Assembly: GCA_023382455.1 (NCBI GenBank)
Contig: JAHDVX010000005.1
Location: forward strand, 1-64,000
Reading direction: 5' to 3'
Source: Flavobacteriales bacterium
Lineage (GTDB): Bacteria; Bacteroidota; Bacteroidia; Flavobacteriales_F; PHOS-HE28
Length of the DNA: 64,000 nucleotides
The notes under the pieces: generated by a model
What the model was told of the DNA's origin: nothing
Databases searched by the model: none
What the model saw: the letters and a program-made list of their open reading frames with translations, nothing else
Shown: positions 26,789 to 38,089 of the stretch, piece after piece
How positions within the stretch are numbered: position 1 is the stretch's first letter
How the letters are laid out: every line of letters begins with the position of its first letter
Position numbers and translations under genes: made by a program

Positions 26789-27469
26789 TCAGCGGGGCGT
26801 GGACTGAGGTGACAGGTGGATGCCCGGGCTTGGGGTGTCAGTGGGCCTTACGGGCATACCGCCGCCCGGGGTGCCCGAACCGGGGTTGATGTTGTTCCTT
26901 TCCGATGGGAAGGTCTTATCCACGGGATGTACACCGCCCGGGTTCGGCTTCGGTGCGGGCGTGCCCTTCCTGAGCGGCTTTACGGCCCGCTTCGTACCCG
27001 TGGGGCGCGGCGCAGGGGTGCCGCTCCCCGATCCCTTCACCGCGGGCTTCATGGTGCCCTTCCCCGGGTCCCGGGCGGGTGCGGGCACCGGTGTGGCCAC
27101 CGGCAGGCTGTCCACCGCGATACTGCGCACGCAGTCCACCGGCACCAGCACCACCTGGGTATCCACGGTGCCGCACGCCGTGGCCGTGCGGCCCTCGGCA
27201 TCCATTACCGTGATGCAGCGCGATTGCCCCGCGACCACATCATCCTTCAGTACCGTATACGGCGCGGTGCCGTCCACCACGTGCCATTGGAAACGGCCCG
27301 CCTGCCGCTCCACGATACCCAAGGTATCCGCCGGTTGGTCCAACGCTGCCTGGCAGATGAACTTGACCACCACCCGGTCCGTGGTGTGCACCACCACGGC
27401 CATTTTACCGGGCTTTGCGGCCGTGGCCGATAGCGCGGCCAACACAAGGGGGAGTGCCAGGAGTTTCAT
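26789..27469 (-). CDS. Secreted Pro/Thr/Gly-rich protein of unknown function
   Basis: A 226-residue protein with a signal peptide (MKLLALPLVLAALSATAAKP). A globular first half, about residues 20-120, has three cysteines. A second half rich in Pro, Gly, Thr and Lys (TPVPAPARDPGKGTMKP, GTPAPKPNPGGVHP) is probably unstructured. No family was recognised. The start at 27469 is set by the signal peptide and a TAACTTCG box at 27490-27497. The same frame is open upstream into the suhB remnant, but that part is not the gene. Confidence 0.65.
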   Translation of the reverse strand: MKLLALPLVLAALSATAAKPGKMAVVVHTTDRVVVKFICQAALDQPADTLGIVERQAGRFQWHVVDGTAPYTVLKDDVVAGQSRCITVMDAEGRTATACGTVDTQVVLVPVDCVRSIAVDSLPVATPVPAPARDPGKGTMKPAVKGSGSGTPAPRPTGTKRAVKPLRKGTPAPKPNPGGVHPVDKTFPSERNNINPGSGTPGGGMPVRPTDTPSPGIHLSPQSTPR

Positions 27470-27489
27470 GGTGGGCGGTTTGATGCACC

Positions 27490-27497
27490 CGAAGTTA
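27490..27497 (-). promoter_or_regulatory. -7 box TAACTTCG
   Basis: TAACTTCG on the minus strand lies 20 bp before the ATG at 27469. The same octamer occurs at 38097-38104 and 52194-52201. Confidence 0.45.
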
Positions 27498-27592
27498 AGT
27501 CGTGCAACGGCGTAATACAAGTTTGTCCTTCCACGGGGATCGGTGGGCGTGGGGGCCGCTGAAGGTTCCCTATGGGGTGTGCCGCTTCTTCG

Positions 27593-27808
27593 ATCCTGCC
27601 TTGGCCAGTTCCTTTCGATCACCTCCAGCAGTTCCTCGTGGATGGCGCTGTTGCTGGCTACGATGGCCTCGTCGAACACTGGGTTCTTGGTGGGGTGGAA
27701 GCCGCTGACCTTGCGGTGGGCCATGCCCCTTACGTCCGGATGGAGGCGGCACGGACCGGGACCCATTTTGATGGGCGGCAGGCCGGACCAGGAGGGGATG
27801 GGGGAGTG
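27593..27808 (-). pseudogene. Left flanking direct repeat: suhB 3'-end remnant
   Basis: On the minus strand this encodes KVSGFHPTKNPVFDEAIVAS and SNSAIHEELLEVIERNWPRQ, the last 43 residues of an inositol monophosphatase like the intact gene at 54887-55687. Its stop codon is lost (CAGGATCGA). Upstream of that lies a non-suhB segment (IKMGPGPCRLHPD). The whole segment is repeated in the same orientation at 36602-36818, about 87% identical by eye. Between it and the array (27809-27915) are GC-rich hairpins such as GCCGCC/GGCGGC at 27842-27856. Confidence 0.85.
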
Positions 27809-27915
27809 CCGCGCCGGGCGCGGATGAATACCCTACATGCCGCCGCCGGAGGCGGCTGAGCTGGCGGCTTGGGCCGCGAGGCCGGGCGAAGGCCCAGGCA
27901 AGCGGCTCGGGGCAC

Positions 27916-30802
27916 CAGCTCAACGGCTTTCAATTCTTTCCTTTGGGCCTAGCTGATCCAACAAATGGGAGCAGGCGGGCAACAAGGCGTTGTTGTGATC
28001 TGCTTTCAATTCTTTCCTTTGGGCCTAGCTGATCCAACCCTGGTGCAATTCTTGAAGTGATGGAGGAAGTTGTGATCTGCTTTCAATTCTTTCCTTTGGG
28101 CCTAGCTGATCCAACTGGACCTGCTTCGTTCATGCAACCCGGGCCGTTGTGATCTGCTTTCAATTCTTTCCTTTGGGCCTAGCTGATCCAACCGGCCCGC
28201 ACCGTGAACCGTTCCCGGACTTGTTGTGATCTGCTTTCAATTCTTTCCTTTGGGCCTAGCTGATCCAACCCTGCAAGTGGACGGCTGGTATCTGCGCCAG
28301 GTTGTGATCTGCTTTCAATTCTTTCCTTTGGGCCTAGCTGATCCAACAAGGCCAAGTAGCCCAAAAAGTAGAACGCGTTGTGATCTGCTTTCAATTCTTT
28401 CCTTTGGGCCTAGCTGATCCAACTAGTACAGGAGGTTGTTGATGCGCAGCGGCGTTGTGATCTGCTTTCAATTCTTTCCTTTGGGCCTAGCTGATCCAAC
28501 CCTCTTCCATCGCTACTACCAGTACCACAAGTTGTGATCTGCTTTCAATTCTTTCCTTTGGGCCTAGCTGATCCAACTCATGTACTCTCGGGCCTCTTCT
28601 GCGGTTGTTGTGATCTGCTTTCAATTCTTTCCTTTGGGCCTAGCTGATCCAACACTGCGCAAATAGTCACTGTTGAGCAGCCGGTTGTGATCTGCTTTCA
28701 ATTCTTTCCTTTGGGCCTAGCTGATCCAACATTTGGCGTTTCACTTCCCCACCGTTCGCCGTTGTGATCTGCTTTCAATTCTTTCCTTTGGGCCTAGCTG
28801 ATCCAACTTGGCGAAGTGATGGAGAACGTGCGCGAATGTTGTGATCTGCTTTCAATTCTTTCCTTTGGGCCTAGCTGATCCAACCCGTTGAGCATGGGGT
28901 TCAAGCGACCAGGGTTGTGATCTGCTTTCAATTCTTTCCTTTGGGCCTAGCTGATCCAACTCACTCACCCAACATCAGCAGCACCCACATGTTGTGATCT
29001 GCTTTCAATTCTTTCCTTTGGGCCTAGCTGATCCAACCGAACACCTCACCCCTTTCCTATTTCCTCGGTTGTGATCTGCTTTCAATTCTTTCCTTTGGGC
29101 CTAGCTGATCCAACTTGGGATAGTGAAAAGCGCACAAACGGCGCGTTGTGATCTGCTTTCAATTCTTTCCTTTGGGCCTAGCTGATCCAACTTTTTCCCG
29201 GCACATTGTGGGGTGGAGCAGGTTGTGATCTGCTTTCAATTCTTTCCTTTGGGCCTAGCTGATCCAACGGGCGGCCATTGCGGGCCTCGGCGTGTCGCGT
29301 TGTGATCTGCTTTCAATTCTTTCCTTTGGGCCTAGCTGATCCAACGCGATGGTGAACAGCGCCATCCATCCGCTGTTGTGATCTGCTTTCAATTCTTTCC
29401 TTTGGGCCTAGCTGATCCAACTTCCCAGCTTCAATGCGCGGAGCCGACCCCGTTGTGATCTGCTTTCAATTCTTTCCTTTGGGCCTAGCTGATCCAACTA
29501 ACACGACGCAGTATACGCTTCTGCATTAGTTGTGATCTGCTTTCAATTCTTTCCTTTGGGCCTAGCTGATCCAACTAAGATACACCGTAACTCCTGTAAC
29601 GGCGAGTTGTGATCTGCTTTCAATTCTTTCCTTTGGGCCTAGCTGATCCAACTCAAAGGCGTTTTGATTGCGCTGGTCGGCAGTTGTGATCTGCTTTCAA
29701 TTCTTTCCTTTGGGCCTAGCTGATCCAACGCGAGGTGCTGAAGGAGGAAATGGGCGTGGTTGTGATCTGCTTTCAATTCTTTCCTTTGGGCCTAGCTGAT
29801 CCAACAGGGAGTTAAGCCCTATTTGCGGCCCATTAGTTGTGATCTGCTTTCAATTCTTTCCTTTGGGCCTAGCTGATCCAACGGTGGGAGGAACAACAAG
29901 TGACCGACACCGTTGTGATCTGCTTTCAATTCTTTCCTTTGGGCCTAGCTGATCCAACTGCCGCATAGGTGCATGTTCTTGGCAGGCGGTTGTGATCTGC
30001 TTTCAATTCTTTCCTTTGGGCCTAGCTGATCCAACTAATAACAAATGAGTGCAGGGGGGACGCAGTTGTGATCTGCTTTCAATTCTTTCCTTTGGGCCTA
30101 GCTGATCCAACGCTCATGGCGCACGGCGCGAACCCCAGGGAGTTGTGATCTGCTTTCAATTCTTTCCTTTGGGCCTAGCTGATCCAACTCCACAGGTGCC
30201 AGGCCGATGTTTCGCCCGTTGTGATCTGCTTTCAATTCTTTCCTTTGGGCCTAGCTGATCCAACGGTCTGTGGTATCGGTAACGAAGCCGAGGCGTTGTG
30301 ATCTGCTTTCAATTCTTTCCTTTGGGCCTAGCTGATCCAACCGTTGGCTTCATGCGCCTGTCCCCGTAGCTGTTGTGATCTGCTTTCAATTCTTTCCTTT
30401 GGGCCTAGCTGATCCAACCCACGTCGGCGGCGTTCGCGCCGTCGAGGCGTTGTGATCTGCTTTCAATTCTTTCCTTTGGGCCTAGCTGATCCAACTCCAC
30501 CAAGGCATCAAGGCCAAGGCCGCGCGTTGTGATCTGCTTTCAATTCTTTCCTTTGGGCCTAGCTGATCCAACCACTACACGCAGTACGTGGAGCCGGGCG
30601 CGTTGTGATCTGCTTTCAATTCTTTCCTTTGGGCCTAGCTGATCCAACAAGGCACAGCGGCCCGCCGGTGGCGGTGAAGTTGTGATCTGCTTTCAATTCT
30701 TTCCTTTGGGCCTAGCTGATCCAACCGGACATGCTGAACTATCGGACGCTCGTGGGTTGTGATCTGCTTTCAATTCTTTCCTTTGGGCCTAGCTGATCCA
30801 AC
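27916..30802 (+). CRISPR. Type II-C CRISPR array, 38 repeats and 37 spacers
   Basis: The repeat is 47 bp, from GTTGTGATCTGCTTTCAATT to GCCTAGCTGATCCAAC. I counted 38 copies; 37 look intact and the period is 76-78 bp. Spacers are 29-31 bp and all appear different. The leftmost copy (27916-27962) has lost the first ten or so bases but keeps the rest. The tracrRNA anti-repeat pairs with the repeat as written on the plus strand, so pre-crRNA must be made left to right, toward cas2. The repeat contains TTG-N18-TTCCTTTG, close to a Bacteroidota promoter. Protospacer origins cannot be judged without searching. Confidence 0.98.
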
Positions 30803-30905
30803 GCGATTGGCTAGAGCCCTTGGGAGACGTGGCCTGTAGCGATTCCGGCCCGCCAAAAATCCAAGCCCGCCCTTGCGCATCACAGCCTTGGGTCCGTCCG
30901 TTTTT
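30803..30905. other. Array flank next to cas2, possible leader
   Basis: This 103-bp gap lies between the last intact repeat and the cas2 stop codon. It contains no gene and no obvious promoter box. Because the degenerate repeat is at the far end, this side may be where new spacers are added. Confidence 0.3.
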
Positions 30906-31244
30906 TCAGAAGAGCTCCAGCTGCGGAGGGGCATCCATGCCAACTACCTCCCGCGTGTTCAGGAAGATCTCCATGGTGCCGAACTGTTTGTCCGTGACGG
31001 CCAGCAAATTCACTTGGCCGTGCGGCGGCAACATGGCCAGCACGCGCCTGCGATGGACCTCCGTGTTCTCCCGGCTGGCGCAATGGCGCAGGTAGATGGA
31101 GAATTGCATCATGCTGAACCCGTTCTCCAGCAACCGCTTCCGGAAGAGCGCCGCCTGCTGGCGGTCCTTCTTGGTCTCGGTGGGCAGGTCGAACATGACG
31201 AAGAGCCACATGACGCGGTAGGCGCTATATCGATCATGGCTCAT
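30906..31244 (-). CDS. cas2: CRISPR-associated endonuclease Cas2
   Basis: A 112-residue ferredoxin-like subunit of the Cas1-Cas2 integrase that inserts new spacers. The N-terminal strand [19 protein letters not shown] carries the conserved Asp, and [17 protein letters not shown] and the C-terminal strand [16 protein letters not shown] complete the fold. The start [10 protein letters not shown] at 31244 lies within the 3' end of cas1 (11-bp overlap), which shows translational coupling. It is the last gene of the cas9-cas1-cas2 operon. Confidence 0.95.
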
Positions 31245-32145
31245 GCAGGGTGGGCAGGGCCAGGGTTTCCCCATTCCCTAGAAAAGCCCGTGCCAAACTG
31301 GCGCTGGTCTCGCTGGCCGCCACTTGCAGCGGGCGCGTACGATCACCCATGCGCACGTCCAAGGTGGGCAAGCGGAGCAAGGCGATCTTGGCTTCCTGGT
31401 CCAGCTCCTCTCGATCCAGCGGCCGGTCCTGCACCAGGCCCCCCACCACTTGGTCCACCAATGGACGATAAGGTTCCATCATATCGTCTGCCAGGCAGAA
31501 GGCGTTGTACCGGTTGCGGTGGAAGAGCCCGAGGGTAGGGTGCAGGCCGCTGCCCACCAAAGCTCGGGCGATAAGGGCCCGCAGGATGGCATAACCATAG
31601 TTGAGCAGGTTGTTGGGGTAGTGCCCCTCCCTGTCGCGCTGGAAGTTCGGCAGGCTGCGAAAGACCTTGGGCCAGTAATACACGGCGGCCGCTCCCTCCC
31701 GGTTGTCGGTATCGCCGCTCAACACCTCGCGGGCCAATCGCTCCAAGCGGGTCGCATCCGATCCTTGCGCGGCCAATATCGCCGCTTGGTTGTTGATCTT
31801 CGCTTGCACCACCTGCTTCCATAACCGCTTCTTCAGCGGCTTGTTGGCCTCGGCCTGGGCGATGAAGGTTTCCGTTTGCGTACTGTGGCCCTGAAAGTTA
31901 AACAACATGCCGCTGGGATGGTGGGTGGCATCGCAATGCACCACGGCCACATTGTGCTCCATCAGGAAGGCCAACAAGGCCTGGGTCACCGTGATCTGCG
32001 GATGCTCCATCAGCAACAGGCCCAGGTCCTCCACGGGCACAGTGCGCCCCGTGTCGCCCTCCACCAACTTGCTGCGCACCAACATCTGTTGCTGCCGCAA
32101 CGACAGGTGGCAGGGGGTGGTGATGGCCACGGTGCGTTTGATCAT
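31234..32145 (-). CDS. cas1: CRISPR-associated endonuclease Cas1
   Basis: A 303-residue type II Cas1, the catalytic subunit of spacer integration. The C-terminal helical domain carries the metal-binding residues in [18 protein letters not shown] (preceded by a conserved region), the His in [20 protein letters not shown] and the acidic residues in [12 protein letters not shown]. The N-terminal beta domain begins [20 protein letters not shown]. It starts 2 bp after the cas9 stop and overlaps cas2. Its length is normal for the II-C subtype. Confidence 0.96.
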
Positions 32146-32147
32146 CT

Positions 32148-35100
32148 TCAGTACTCGCCTACATGGACAATCTGGCCGAGGTGGTTCAAACGGACCTTAA
32201 TCATGCCCGAGAGGGCTTGTGGGGTCCATTTGAATTGATAAGTGATACCATTAAGGTTCTTTTTCTTCAACATTTCGCCATCAACAGCTTGGGTAATCAG
32301 GTGATGGTTGAAGACATAGTACTTACTCGAGATCTTCTGTACCCTGAACAGATGAGGCGCAATCAATGATGTATTGGCCGAATTCATCAGGTTAATGCCT
32401 GCGGGGTCGAAGCCGGTTTCCGGATCGGGGAAGACGAACATTTCATTCTGCTTCATGGTGAAGAGGAATTGCCAACCCTTTTCGCTGTTGAAGTCCTTGT
32501 CAACAACAGGCTGGCCATCCAAGCGCCGTGCCACGGCTACATGGAAGGACACTACCTGCTCCTGCAGATCGCCCTTTTCGTCACGGTAAATGGCCACGTG
32601 GTGGTTGTTGCCGGTCTGCACAAAGTCGGCAGGTATTTCCTGTCCTTCGTCGTTCAGGATCGGTTTGCCGTGGTGGTCGCGTTGAATGTGCAGCGGGATG
32701 GCGTTGCTAACGCCGGTAATGGTCACGCGCTTCAGCTTGGCGCCGCCGGGCCTGTCCACCCAGATGGGGTCTTCATCCAAGTTGACGAAGGCTTTCTTGG
32801 GTTCACCGCCGAAGCGGTCCAACCGCTCTTGCAGCAGGCGCTTCACCCGCCCATCGATCACTTTTTCCACATTCAGGTCCGGGGCGATGGGCTTGCGGAT
32901 GGTGAAGATGTCCGTCCATTCCACCACGGCAACTTTTTCGGGTACTTGGTCCTTCTGGTGCTCGTCCAACCAGATCGGCCTTTTGTTCAAGGCATTCTTT
33001 CCGCCAAAGGCTTTTTTGGGATCCCCGCCGGCTTCCTGCAAGCGGAGTTGCAGCGCTTCGCGATAGGCCTTGTCGGCCACCGTGGCGATTATTTCCGGCC
33101 CGAAGCCTGGCCCGACTTTCACGACCTTGGTGGTGTACTGCTTGCGCTTGCCGTACACGGTTTCCTTGTGTAGTTGCCCACGCGGGGTCAGTTCGGTCTT
33201 CCTGTGGTACCCCTTGGCCTTTTTGCTCTTGTTCACGTTGCGGGTGGTCACCTTGTTCTTGGTCTTGAAGCTGACCAGGATGCTCTCCAACTGTTGTTTG
33301 GCCTCATCGCGGAAATCCTTGCTGGGGATCGGCGGAATGAAATACCGCCGGCCTTGTTCATCCAGCTTCGTTTCCTTGTTCTCGATGGCCAGGATGTTCC
33401 GGTGCTTTTTGTGCCCTTCGTCCTTGCGGGCGTTCAGGTAGTTCAGGTATTGGATGTGGCTGGGCCGGGTGAAGGCAATGGTGATGGCATCCATGGCATG
33501 GTGCCGGTGGTCGTTGCGCTTGGTCCAATCGGTGATCAGGGTGAGCTGCTTGCCATCCTTGGTGGTCTCCTGGTGCACCAGCCCGGCCTTTTCATACTTG
33601 GGCCGGTTCAATTCCTGCAGGACATTCATCAGGCCCCAATCACGGCGCAGCTCGTCGGTGACCTTTCCCGTCGTGGGTGTCACGGTGCGGGCCACCTGCT
33701 TCAGCATGGCTACGGCCGTGCGGGTGATGTACTGCGTGTTGCGCAGGTCGCGCTCAATGAAGCCGTCGGGTATATCGGCCTCCTTCATCAGCAGTTTCTT
33801 GTACTTGGCCTTGCTGCCTTCCTTGAAGAACTTTTCCACCCGCTCCTTGTACTGGGCCACCTCGGTGCTTTCGGCCCCGTATTGGGCCTCCATGAAATCC
33901 ATGGCCGTGGCATTGCCCTTCTGCACGTTCACCGTTTTCAGGGCAAGGGTCTTGTTGCTGAAGCTGTCATCGAACAGCCGTGCTTGCGGGATGATGTGCT
34001 CGATATCGAACTTGTTGCCGAAGAGCTCCTCCAGCGGGATGTACGTGCCGGTGTAGAGGGTCTTGTGGCCGTTCTGTTCCAACTCCTGCCACAGCTTGTA
34101 CTTGATGATGTCGTTGCGCGTGATGCGAACGCCGGTGTTGAACGGATGCAGCTTGGCGATCTCCTGCCGGATCTTGTCGTGCTCGCGGGTGGCCTTGTCA
34201 ATGTTGGTGGTCATCTCGGCCCGTTCCTTGGCGCCCATCTTCATCTCGCGGGCCATTTCGATGCGGATCTCATCGGGGCGGCCGTATGCATCGATCACCC
34301 CGTTCACCACATGGATCATCTGGTTCAGCACCTTTTCCACCACGGGGTTGCGCAGGCTGTTCTTGGGCAGGACCGACAGCTTCTCCAGTAGCTCGCGGTT
34401 CTCGTTCTCTTCGGCGGTAATGGAATGGCTGTGGTTGTACCCCGCAGCCAGGCAAGCCTCGTCGTAGGTCACCCCTTCCTTCAAGTGCGGAAGGATCTTT
34501 TTGATGGCACGGGCGCTCAGGTTGCCGTGGGCATCCTCGAAGCCCACCTTGGCCATGATCTTGGCACACTCCGCGTCGAAATCGAACTTCTTTTGGAGTT
34601 TTCGGGCCAGTTTTTCGGTGCCGCTGCGGCTGCCGTCCCCTTCGTACGAGTACAGGAGGTGCCATAGGGCGTAGGCCGGTTGTTGTTCAAATGCCTTGCC
34701 CCCAAGGCTGGCATCGAACTCGAGGAAGGAAAGGTTCACACCGAGGTTGCCCAGAACAGACTGCACGAGGTCCAGTTGATCGGCAACTTCCATTTTATCG
34801 AAGTCGGGCTGCTCATGGCCGGTCACGGCCAACATTTGGTCAAAGGCCTCCAAGTATTTCACATGTGTCCGGTTGCCCTCCAACTTATCATGGTTCAGTT
34901 TCCACTCCTTCGGCTTCAGGCCGATCAACTTCAAGGCTTGGTGGGCGGAGAGTTCCTTCCTCCAGTTCAATTCTTCGAATAACCGGGCCTTGTATTCCGG
35001 ACCAAGGGTCCACTCCTTGCCCTGCCGGTCAATGCCGTTGCCCAGGTGCCCTTCACCATCATCCTTTCCTTGATAGGTAAGCACAAGATTGTTGAGTACT

Positions 35101-36383
35101 TGCCAGATCCGAAACTCCTGGAACAGCGGGGACGACTTGGGACAGACACGGGGGCCCACCATGTGCATCTTGGGTTTGCCGTCCTTGGTCAGCACGGGTT
35201 GCCCATTCTCATCCAGCTTCTGCTCCTTACGCCCTTCGAATTCGCAAACCGACAACAATCCCTTCTGTGACTTGAGCCTACGCTGATAGAAAATGACCGT
35301 GTCACGTATTTCGGCCTTTAGCTGGTCGGTGAGGCGTTCGGGATGTGCCTTGCTTTGGGTTATCCAGAGCCGTTCAAACTCGTCCAAATAATCCAACCGG
35401 TAGAAGGTTTGATTCTTGAGCGAGGTATGGGGGTCCTTCTTGATCTGTGCATACAAGTACTGGCCCACGGTGAGGTCTTGGATCATGAGCTGCTTGCTCC
35501 GGTCACTGATCGCGCCGAGCAAGCCGCTGGAAGAGCTCATGGCCCCGTTGATCTGCTGGATCACCACGGCCAGTTGCTCCAGGCTCAGCTTCTTGGTTAA
35601 GGCATCCACCCGCCATTGGTAGTCCTCCAGCCTCTTTTCCGCTCCATTGGTGTTCCGCTTTTCTCCCACCAGGCCCCAAGGTTCCTTCAGTATGGCCCAT
35701 GTGGCCTTCTGCGCCTTCCCTGCGATCTTTTCCAGTAGGGCGCCATTCAACAGGTCCACGCCGTGGTACTCTTGTTGCTTCCGCCAGATTTGGTCAAGTT
35801 CGGCTTGCAGGTCGCTGTGGTAGAAATCCGGGATGTAGCGCTTGCCTTCCTGTAGGCGGCGTAGTCCGTATTGCCCCGGGGTGAGGTCATTGTCATACAG
35901 TTCACGGGCCACGGTCATGCCGTCCAAGGCCTGGCCTTCGTCCTCATCCTTGGCCTTCCGGTTGCTCTTGTATCCCCGCTTCTTGTTGATGGCCATCAGC
36001 ACGCGGGCAAATTCATGCAAGGCGATCGGGTCCGTGACGGCCTTTGCACGTAGCCGCCAAGTTTCATGGGTGGTTCCTTTGCCGTCCTCGGCTAGTGGTG
36101 TGTTGTCGTCTATGATCCCGTTCTTTCGCAGAAGTGCGATCAGGTGATCTCGTCGCATCTGGTAGCGGTCCAGGTTACGGCGCATACCACGCTTCAATGT
36201 GCGATCGGCCGTGGTGGTGATCGACTGGCCTTTCTCGAAGGCAGCCTGTTCGTCAGTGGTCAAGGGCACCACCCGCACACCGGTCTTCACAATACTGGAG
36301 CGCTCGCTGTCCGATTCGGCTTCATTCACCACGGCCCAGCCAATGGATGTAGTGCCGAGGTCAAGTCCAAGGATCTTTTTCAT
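32148..36383 (-). CDS. cas9: Type II-C CRISPR effector nuclease Cas9
   Basis: A 1411-residue RNA-guided double-strand DNA nuclease. RuvC-I has Asp8 in LGLDLGTTSIGWA. The arginine-rich bridge helix follows near residues 60-90 (RTLKRGMRRNLDRYQMRRD). RuvC-II has Glu709 in IRIEMARE. The HNH domain has His796 in FDIEHIIPQARLFDD. RuvC-III has His961 and Asp965 in HRHHAMDAI. All catalytic residues are intact. The length fits large Bacteroidota II-C enzymes. The C-terminal region holds a tandem motif GGxPKKAF...PIWxD at 1119-1141 and 1192-1210, about 73 residues apart. The start MKKILGLD at 36383 is 30 bp from the divergent tracrRNA promoter. The PAM is not inferable here. Confidence 0.98.
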   Translation of the reverse strand: MKKILGLDLGTTSIGWAVVNEAESDSERSSIVKTGVRVVPLTTDEQAAFEKGQSITTTADRTLKRGMRRNLDRYQMRRDHLIALLRKNGIIDDNTPLAEDGKGTTHETWRLRAKAVTDPIALHEFARVLMAINKKRGYKSNRKAKDEDEGQALDGMTVARELYDNDLTPGQYGLRRLQEGKRYIPDFYHSDLQAELDQIWRKQQEYHGVDLLNGALLEKIAGKAQKATWAILKEPWGLVGEKRNTNGAEKRLEDYQWRVDALTKKLSLEQLAVVIQQINGAMSSSSGLLGAISDRSKQLMIQDLTVGQYLYAQIKKDPHTSLKNQTFYRLDYLDEFERLWITQSKAHPERLTDQLKAEIRDTVIFYQRRLKSQKGLLSVCEFEGRKEQKLDENGQPVLTKDGKPKMHMVGPRVCPKSSPLFQEFRIWQVLNNLVLTYQGKDDGEGHLGNGIDRQGKEWTLGPEYKARLFEELNWRKELSAHQALKLIGLKPKEWKLNHDKLEGNRTHVKYLEAFDQMLAVTGHEQPDFDKMEVADQLDLVQSVLGNLGVNLSFLEFDASLGGKAFEQQPAYALWHLLYSYEGDGSRSGTEKLARKLQKKFDFDAECAKIMAKVGFEDAHGNLSARAIKKILPHLKEGVTYDEACLAAGYNHSHSITAEENENRELLEKLSVLPKNSLRNPVVEKVLNQMIHVVNGVIDAYGRPDEIRIEMAREMKMGAKERAEMTTNIDKATREHDKIRQEIAKLHPFNTGVRITRNDIIKYKLWQELEQNGHKTLYTGTYIPLEELFGNKFDIEHIIPQARLFDDSFSNKTLALKTVNVQKGNATAMDFMEAQYGAESTEVAQYKERVEKFFKEGSKAKYKKLLMKEADIPDGFIERDLRNTQYITRTAVAMLKQVARTVTPTTGKVTDELRRDWGLMNVLQELNRPKYEKAGLVHQETTKDGKQLTLITDWTKRNDHRHHAMDAITIAFTRPSHIQYLNYLNARKDEGHKKHRNILAIENKETKLDEQGRRYFIPPIPSKDFRDEAKQQLESILVSFKTKNKVTTRNVNKSKKAKGYHRKTELTPRGQLHKETVYGKRKQYTTKVVKVGPGFGPEIIATVADKAYREALQLRLQEAGGDPKKAFGGKNALNKRPIWLDEHQKDQVPEKVAVVEWTDIFTIRKPIAPDLNVEKVIDGRVKRLLQERLDRFGGEPKKAFVNLDEDPIWVDRPGGAKLKRVTITGVSNAIPLHIQRDHHGKPILNDEGQEIPADFVQTGNNHHVAIYRDEKGDLQEQVVSFHVAVARRLDGQPVVDKDFNSEKGWQFLFTMKQNEMFVFPDPETGFDPAGINLMNSANTSLIAPHLFRVQKISSKYYVFNHHLITQAVDGEMLKKKNLNGITYQFKWTPQALSGMIKVRLNHLGQIVHVGEY

Positions 36384-36412
36384 GGAAGTTGTATGGGGCT
36401 TTGGTTTCGATC

Positions 36413-36420
36413 TATCTTTG
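36413..36420 (+). promoter_or_regulatory. tracrRNA promoter, TTG-N21-TATCTTTG
   Basis: TATCTTTG is a perfect TAnnTTTG box. A TTG at 36389-36391 lies 21 bp upstream, within the 17-23 bp spacing known for Flavobacterium promoters. It points away from cas9, into the anti-repeat. Confidence 0.75.
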
Positions 36421-36425
36421 GGCCA

Positions 36426-36513
36426 AGAATTGAAGCAGATCACAATAAGGGTTATCCCGTTGTGTGAACATTTACTCGGCCCGGTAGCGCAAGCTGCCGG
36501 GTCGCTTTATTTT
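36426..36513 (+). ncRNA. tracrRNA
   Basis: The transcript begins just after the TATCTTTG box. An anti-repeat (GAATTGAAGCAGATCACAA and flanking bases, about 36426-36445) pairs with the first 22 bases of the CRISPR repeat over about 21 bp with a one-base bulge. A short GGG-TTAT-CCC hairpin follows, then a single-stranded linker and a strong terminator hairpin. Its location upstream of and divergent from cas9 is usual for II-C systems. The exact 5' end is inferred from the promoter. Confidence 0.88.
36477..36513 (+). terminator. Rho-independent terminator of the tracrRNA
   Basis: A 12-bp stem (left arm 36477-36488, right arm 36493-36504) closes a GCAA tetraloop and is followed by CTTTATTTT. It also serves as the 3' structural hairpin of the tracrRNA. 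Confidence 0.85.
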
Positions 36514-36601
36514 CCGCTTCAGCCTTGCTTGCCCAAGGTAAGTGACTCCCGGATATCTGCGCGAGGCTTGGCAAGCTTATGGATGGCCTTGGCCCCCCTC
36601 A

Positions 36602-36818
36602 ATCCTGCCTTTGCCAGTTCCTTTCGATCACCTCGAGCAGCTCCTCGTGGATGGCGCTGTTGCTGGCCATGATGGCCGCGTCGTACACGGGGGCCTTGCT
36701 GGGGTGGAAGCCGCTGACCTGGCCGCCGCCCCACGCTCCTTAGGTCCGGATGGAGGCGGCACGAGCCGGGATCCATTTTGATGCGCGGCAGGCCGGAAAA
36801 GGAGGGGATGGGGGAGTG
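36602..36818 (-). pseudogene. Right flanking direct repeat: suhB 3'-end remnant
   Basis: On the minus strand this encodes QVSGFHPSKAPVYDAAIMAS and SNSAIHEELLEVIERNWQRQ, then D and a TGA stop, the end of an inositol monophosphatase. It is preceded by the same foreign segment (IKMDPGSCRLHPD) as the left copy. It lies in the same orientation as 27593-27808, 9.0 kb away, and brackets the whole CRISPR-Cas locus. The gene-free stretch 36514-36841 holds nothing else that I can identify. Confidence 0.85.
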
Positions 36819-36841
36819 AACCCTGCATGCCGCTGCCGCAC

Positions 36842-38089
36842 CTATTCCTTCACCAGGCGCAGCACACCACCCGTGCCGTGGATCCGCACGAGATACCATC
36901 CGGGAGGTAAGCCGTGGAGGTCCAGCACCGCATGGCCGCCTGCCACGGTTCCTTGGCGGAGCGGCCGGCCCTGGAGGTCCGTGATGGTGTAGGAGGCCGG
37001 CGCGGGTGAGGGGAGCGAGAGGGTGGTGGTGGCCGCTGCGGGGTTGGGCGCGAGCCGTGCCAGCGTGCCGGGTTCCACCTGTGGCACGGCCGTGGGGATG
37101 CCGCACATCACATCGCGCATCCATTGAACCAATTCGGCGGTGACGCCCTCGAGGTCGTGTATGGCATGCTCATTTCCGGGGTGGAGGATGAACCGGTAGC
37201 GGTCCGTGCCGTAGCCCAGGTGTTGCGTCCGCGCCTCGATCAGGCAGGAGCCGAAGAGCCAGGGGTTGTTGTCCGGTATGCCGAGGCCGATGCCCCAATA
37301 CGGCTGCTGCAGGCCGCAGCCCACCACGGGGTCGCCGCTCTGGTGGTAACTGAAGAGCGCCGCATCCTCCGCGCTTCCGATGTAGGCCGTGTCCATCAGC
37401 GCCCCGTAGATGTTCACCACGCCCATCACCGAGGCATCCTGCCCGTTGAGGTTCAGGTCGCCATCCATACTGCCCAGGTCCGGCCGCGGGTAGAAGGAGA
37501 GGAAATGCTGCACATCGCCGATGGCGCCGCAATCGGCAGGCTTCTCCGAGGGGTTGTCCAGGTAGGCCGCGTGCAGCGCCGTGATGGCTCCTGCGCTGCC
37601 GCCCAGCAGGAACATGGCCGTGGTGCTGGTGCTGTCCTGCTCATGGCGCCCCTTCAGGAAGCGGACGGCGCCCTTGGCATCCTGCATGGCGCGGTAGATG
37701 GCGCGGCGCAGCTCATGCGGGTCGTTGGCGTAGGGCGGCCCGAAGAGCCAGGAGCCGTAGAAGCCCAGGCGGTAGCTGATGGTGGCCGCCGCCCAGCCCT
37801 TGGAGGCCAGCTCCTCGGCCCAGGGGTTGAACTCGTCCCGGCTCCCCTCGAAGAAGCCGCCGCCGTGGATCAGCACCACCAGTGGCCGTTGCGTCTGTCC
37901 GTCGCCCACCGGCTTATACAGGTTCAGGCGCAGGCTGTCGGTGCCGCCATCAAAGCGGGTGGCATTGCCGTACCACACACCGCTTTCCACCTGCACGGCG
38001 AAGAGGGAATCGGTGAAGGGGATGGAGCAATCCTGGCCGCGGACGGCGACAGCCGCCGCCAACAGCACGGGAAGAAACAGGGGGCGCAT
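36842..38089 (-). CDS. Secreted esterase with type A T9SS sorting domain
   Basis: A 415-residue exported alpha/beta-hydrolase. The signal peptide is MRPLFLPVLLAAAVAVRG. The catalytic core has the oxyanion motif LIHGGGF, the nucleophile elbow LGGSAGAITA and a candidate His in HPGNEHAIHD. The last 75 residues form a type A C-terminal sorting domain (LAPNPAAATTTLSL, YTITDLQGRPLRQG, LPPGWYLVRI), the signal for type IX secretion. A TAACTTCG box lies 7 bp upstream of the start. The substrate is unknown. Confidence 0.87.
   Translation of the reverse strand: MRPLFLPVLLAAAVAVRGQDCSIPFTDSLFAVQVESGVWYGNATRFDGGTDSLRLNLYKPVGDGQTQRPLVVLIHGGGFFEGSRDEFNPWAEELASKGWAAATISYRLGFYGSWLFGPPYANDPHELRRAIYRAMQDAKGAVRFLKGRHEQDSTSTTAMFLLGGSAGAITALHAAYLDNPSEKPADCGAIGDVQHFLSFYPRPDLGSMDGDLNLNGQDASVMGVVNIYGALMDTAYIGSAEDAALFSYHQSGDPVVGCGLQQPYWGIGLGIPDNNPWLFGSCLIEARTQHLGYGTDRYRFILHPGNEHAIHDLEGVTAELVQWMRDVMCGIPTAVPQVEPGTLARLAPNPAAATTTLSLPSPAPASYTITDLQGRPLRQGTVAGGHAVLDLHGLPPGWYLVRIHGTGGVLRLVKE

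Follow-up and report, generated by a model that had tools for sequence, protein, structure and literature searches.

A Bacteroidota −7 box in the long repeats of type II-C CRISPR arrays points to repeat-embedded promoters, weakened or possibly lost in one array

Our comparison of type II-C CRISPR loci suggests that σABfr-type promoters embedded in the repeats are most likely a rule of this lineage, and that they are weakened or possibly lost in the array from which the analysis started. Four lines of evidence support this idea: a TAnnTT[T][G/A] element is locked in position in long repeats, the tracrRNA promoters of all classes examined share it, non-type-II repeats lack the element and the degenerate extra repeats at array starts preserve it. 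The sequence of the element, its position, its conservation pattern and the pairing of the repeat with tracrRNA are direct observations, and the best explanation that we can offer for them, with a rough probability of 0.62, is that repeats of 44–48 nt carry embedded −7 promoters, which would be weak in the array described here.

Results

The window, the 64,000-nt stretch of DNA analysed here, belongs to a Bacteroidota genome of 3.43 Mb and 64% G+C, and its CRISPR system is an ordinary Cas9 type II-C system. The cas genes lie on the minus strand: cas2 (30906..31274; NCBIfam TIGR01573, E 4e-17), a type II cas1 (cas1_NMENI, 31234..32145; NCBIfam TIGR03639, score 282 bits, cut-off 120) and cas9 (32148..36383, ~1411 aa, start ATG at 36383; NCBIfam TIGR01865, E 1e-154, and HNH_4). 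There is neither csn2 nor cas4, the stretch from cas9 to the array contains no additional gene, and the cas2 end is ~100 nt from the array. The full repeats (27992..30802, plus strand) number 37, all identical at 47 nt, GTTGTGATCTGCTTTCAATTCTTTCCTTTGGGCCTAGCTGATCCAAC, with 36 spacers of 29–31 nt. Upstream, at the leader-distal end, stands an extra, degenerate 38th repeat (27916..27962, plus strand), in which the first 10 nt, including the TTG, are degenerate and positions 11–47 are intact. The flank opposite the degenerate repeat (30803..30905) adjoins cas2 and is the expected site of spacer addition, the leader side being assigned from the polarity of II-C arrays (PMC12080349, PMC8092290).

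A tracrRNA is predicted on the plus strand at 36425..36515, with an anti-repeat, hairpins and then a G+C-rich terminator-like stem between putative 5′ and 3′ ends. The anti-repeat (36425–36447) pairs with repeat positions 1–24 at −29.9 kcal/mol; the duplex spans these positions only, and 25–47 have no pairing role. This pairing assigns the crRNAs to the plus strand; their direction is contrary to that of the cas genes and points to the cas2/leader end. An Rfam search of 27000–37200 gave no match. The candidate −7 element, TTCCTTTG, occupies repeat positions 23–30 on the plus strand (28014–28021 in the first full repeat) and is intact in the extra repeat (27938–27945). The initial annotation had placed a TTG at positions 2–4, followed after 18 nt by TTCCTTTG at 23–30, in each repeat; these coordinates are right, but "each" is not, since the first repeat begins CAGCTCAACG.

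The tracrRNA promoters provide an independent yardstick

Among 80 related cas9 loci fetched, 75 gave an anti-repeat, and the 40-nt regions upstream of it (n = 75) were submitted to an expectation-maximisation motif search that presupposed no motif. The search returned TATATTTG, with T, A, T and T nearly invariant, mostly 11–22 nt upstream of the anti-repeat, and the motif precedes every tracrRNA class examined. It is the Bacteroidota −7 box, TAnnTTTG, known from Bacteroides fragilis and B. thetaiotaomicron (PMC7366714). A TTG at N17–23 before the tracrRNAs is only moderately enriched (23/70 against 8.1 expected). The predicted tracrRNA promoter of the window reads TTG-N21-TATCTTTG (36389..36420, plus strand), with a perfect TAnnTTTG at 36413–36420, the motif having emerged de novo at 75 homologous positions. 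Nearly all Bacteroidota II-C tracrRNAs (L003–L081) have TAnnTTTG 11–22 nt before the anti-repeat, a feature that could serve to annotate them.

RNase P leaders of the genus were tried as another −7 yardstick and set aside: only one among those listed has TnnnTTTG within 55 nt upstream, and the promoters probably sit farther off, which would explain why so few have it. The same leaders brought up a separate observation. In the genus, a box GTTCNTT(G/C), often GTTCNTTGA, resembles the boxA antitermination element (L140–L169, L170–L199); in the leaders listed it stands between the promoter and the tmRNA 5′ end and directly before RNase P RNA, and in these two sets of loci it lies ~55 nt upstream of the RNA match.

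The −7 box is locked in position in long repeats across the class

We applied the tracrRNA-derived profile to 52 unique Bacteroidota II-C repeats, which form 29 clusters at 80% identity. The mean score was 8.3 bits, against 3.4 in dinucleotide shuffles of the same segments (score p ~2e-15), and the best site fell at repeat positions 21–26 in 27/29 clusters, against 28% in shuffles (binomial p 2.6e-13). The profile peaks at positions 22–25 in nearly all repeats, and nothing was obtained when the antisense strand of the repeats was scored with it. Column information is 1.64 for T1, 1.78 for A2, 0.45 and 0.56 for the two n positions, 2.0 for each of the following T bases, 0.79 for T7 and 1.0 for G/A8, and across species it stays below 0.3 bit over about the next 18 columns past the box. 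Bases 7–8 of the repeat box show no significant covariation with the same-locus tracrRNA promoter, with p 0.25 for base 8 against the tracrRNA box.

The pattern recurred in a hold-out sample, drawn by cas1 and not by Cas9 similarity from 395 class-wide genomes: TAnnTT lies at 21–26 in 24/28 long repeats, with L296 excluded as a non-CRISPR repeat (24/29 with it). Repeats of 34–36 nt have the box in only 3/13 cases; with the 36-nt repeats mostly lacking it, the −7 box does not hold as a general feature of Bacteroidia II-C arrays. Among 21 non-type-II Bacteroidia repeats, none has TAnnTTT[GA] in either sense.

Several further repeat types came to light. Short Bacteroidia II-C repeats beginning TTGTGGTTTGATT (L282, L288, L289, L300, L330, L342) have no −7 box. 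The genus also contains another II-C system, whose Cas9 is diverged (~32–38% identity) and whose repeats begin GTTGTGAAAGGCTTTCAGGTCAAGATCTTTGACG and have the box GATCTTTG (L202, L200, L092, L093 and others); this G1 variant is common to several unrelated repeats. Finally, one Bacteroidota genome (cas1 locus L356) has a 36-nt Neisseria-like repeat ending GCTACAATC, possibly a transferred system.

The array of the window carries the worst version of the box

The closeness of TTCCTTTG to TAnnTTTG, as proposed in the initial annotation, holds for 7 of the 8 bases, but the missing base is A2, replaced by T, and taken alone the match is within chance (shuffle p = 0.13). The array of the window has the worst version of the box, and the position of the element becomes significant solely through homology with other Bacteroidota repeats. 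A2 is present in 51/52 unique homologous repeats, the sole exception being the repeat of the window, in 25/25 tmRNA promoters examined in the genus (all TA..TT) and invariably in the tracrRNA promoters listed for the genus. Genes in ~700 kb of the window's own genome were called with a simple codon-usage script. In the regions upstream of them TTnnTTTG shows no enrichment (7 seen against 9.1 expected), whereas TAnnTTTG is enriched (22 against 4.5). TAnnTTCG is more enriched still (35 against 3.4) and looks like a G+C-adapted form of the −7 box. With A2 missing and TTnnTTTG not enriched, the promoters of this array should be weak, or may be lost.

These are the observations to be expected if embedded promoters were real in the class and abolished in this genus by the change of A2 to T, the array then being read from an unrecognised promoter or poorly expressed. 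We consider this the strongest of the alternatives, though an unlikely one, since the genus variants of the repeat still carry TTCCTTTG, and CTTTCCTTTG is constant in all of them and in the extra repeat, whereas the bases just after it differ between species. The promoter scans speak against loss as well. TAnnTT[TCAG][GA] has no match on the plus strand from 27301 to the array, so that the 600 nt upstream hold no consensus promoter, and none on the minus strand at 30700–31000, where a leader promoter toward the array would lie; an external or leader promoter driving the array was rejected for lack of a consensus match in the regions scanned. No sigma-70-like promoters were found in the array region, and the 3′ end of the repeat, GCTGATCCAAC, is not an extended −10 of the TGnTACAAT type.

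Entry from upstream would in addition be blocked by a strong hairpin directly 5′ of the array (27857..27922, plus strand), whose 3′ arm extends into the extra repeat at its degenerate 5′ end. The fold has a z of −5.0 and an MFE of −68.5 kcal/mol (27820–27935), and comparable long hairpins occur at the same place in relatives within the genus. From the modelled fold, the hairpin is probably an insulator that stops read-through, sequesters the guide of an extraneous crRNA, or does both.

Extra repeats keep the box and lose the TTG

In the first repeats of 41 arrays with a readable start, 32% of sites are changed at positions 1–16 and 9% from there to the box, but only 1.5% within the −7 box and 1.1% downstream of it; the extra repeat of the window keeps its box. 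Two boxes are altered, TATTTTCA to TATGTTGA and TATCTTTG to CAGGTTTG, and as they retain TA..TT or A..TTTG, the bases that would be critical to a promoter mostly stayed. That extra repeats lose their tracrRNA-pairing end is already known and has been read as avoidance of extraneous crRNA (PMC12080349). What remains of an extra repeat serves no spacer as a 3′ tag, which makes a promoter for the first spacer the simplest reason for keeping it. The −33 TTG is not preserved. In the window a TTG does stand at N18 from the box, at repeat positions 2–4, and the initial annotation had taken it as promoter support; it belongs, however, to the GTTGTG block fixed by tracrRNA pairing and is gone from the extra repeats, and we rejected it as promoter evidence.

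In extra repeats, the stretch separating the −7 box from the spacer is preserved to the same degree as the box, yet it varies freely between species. This preservation is more than a −7 element alone requires, and the retention of the entire 3′ half, together with the need of Cas1-Cas2 to recognise repeats, is what would favour reading the central element as an integration mark, or as serving some other DNA or RNA function, with a coincidental likeness to a −7 box. We regard that reading as improbable: the profile was derived from tracrRNA upstream regions and not from repeats, the box is retained in the repeat at the leader-distal end, where integration does not occur, conservation across species drops to near zero directly past the box, and non-type-II repeats do without it. 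Chance, finally, is a very poor explanation even though TAnnTTT-like strings are frequent in A+T-rich repeats and the window's own copy is within chance, as it is already refuted at class level by the dinucleotide shuffles, the positional locking, the antisense control and the hold-out set.

Discussion

A unifying model based on these data divides the 44–48-nt Bacteroidota II-C repeat in two: the first half (about positions 1–24) would pair with tracrRNA, and the second would carry a −7 element of the TAnnTTTG type, presumably read by the primary Bacteroidota sigma factor. RNA polymerase would start ~5–7 nt downstream, near repeat position 35–37, which fits the spacing, and would transcribe against the direction of the cas genes, heading for the leader/cas2 end. 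The predicted products are RNAs made up of ~11 repeat nucleotides, a spacer and the following repeat, and every one of them could pair with tracrRNA. With its off-consensus TTCCTTTG, each promoter of the window is expected to be weak, for which the 38 tandem copies may compensate. The general idea of a sigma motif embedded in II-C repeats, firing toward the leader end, is upheld strongly by the class-level comparison, while the array for which it was proposed is itself off-consensus. Sequence comparison makes it very probable that Bacteroidota II-C arrays have repeat-embedded promoters, and rather likely that these also work in the array of the window. More broadly, and with a confidence only slightly better than even, the long repeats may be a fusion of a tracrRNA-pairing half with a promoter half that bears the −7 box of the phylum. 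In that case every array would consist of identical weak promoters in series, weaker than the tracrRNA promoter, and host sigma specificity would limit the phyla in which it is usable.

If true, this model would account for the extra ten or so nucleotides that Bacteroidota II-C repeats have compared with those elsewhere, for the failure of promoter-prediction programs to find anything in them and for the production of crRNA without a leader promoter. It would also supply a usable rule to orient arrays and to find tracrRNAs in the phylum. Unless given a foreign promoter, the arrays would be predicted to be silent in E. coli, a point of relevance for the use of these Cas9s.

The arrangement as such is known; the variant proposed here is sigma-specific. 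Repeat-embedded promoters, the principle in question, are established in the II-C systems of Neisseria meningitidis (Zhang 2013) and Campylobacter jejuni (Dugar 2013), both cited in later papers (PMC7038990, PMC12080349). These systems share with the array of the window their type, a promoter proposed here within each repeat, transcription toward the acquisition end and one extra repeat at the start of transcription. Their extended −10 lies within the final nine bases of a 36-nt repeat, with the start at the spacer, whereas the window has a TAnnTTTG-type box in mid-repeat (23–30 of 47) with ~17 repeat nucleotides after it, recognised here from sequence alone.

Closer in phylogeny are two Flavobacterium systems of the same phylum, with the same direction of transcription and a proposed repeat-encoded promoter. 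In F. columnare II-C, a TTG in the repeat was proposed as promoter, a proposal supported by eight reads that fall in the array (PMC8092290); this TTG lies 33 bp from the spacer, which would imply a ~36-nt repeat. In F. psychrophilum, a repeat-encoded promoter was inferred, and transcripts come from both parts of an array that an IS has split (PMC10309648). Both papers name only the −33 TTG and no −7 box (PMC8092290, PMC10309648), whereas in the long repeats compared here it is the −7 box that is conserved, and the TTG is uninformative. Among published open-access papers, we found no report of a −7 box in repeats. Riemerella anatipestifer CRISPR1, a homologous locus with the same repeat type, has 47-nt repeats in which a general neural-network promoter predictor detected no promoter (PMC5006608), although a perfect TATCTTTG is present in its repeat (locus L022). 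Finally, mutation of the extra repeat and upstream hairpins are known to act against extraneous crRNA (Feussner 2025, PMC12080349), and the window conforms, with a first repeat mutated at its tracrRNA-pairing end and a strong hairpin before it. The preservation of promoter positions was not the subject of that study, and our comparison adds to it a sharp boundary of preservation at the −7 box.
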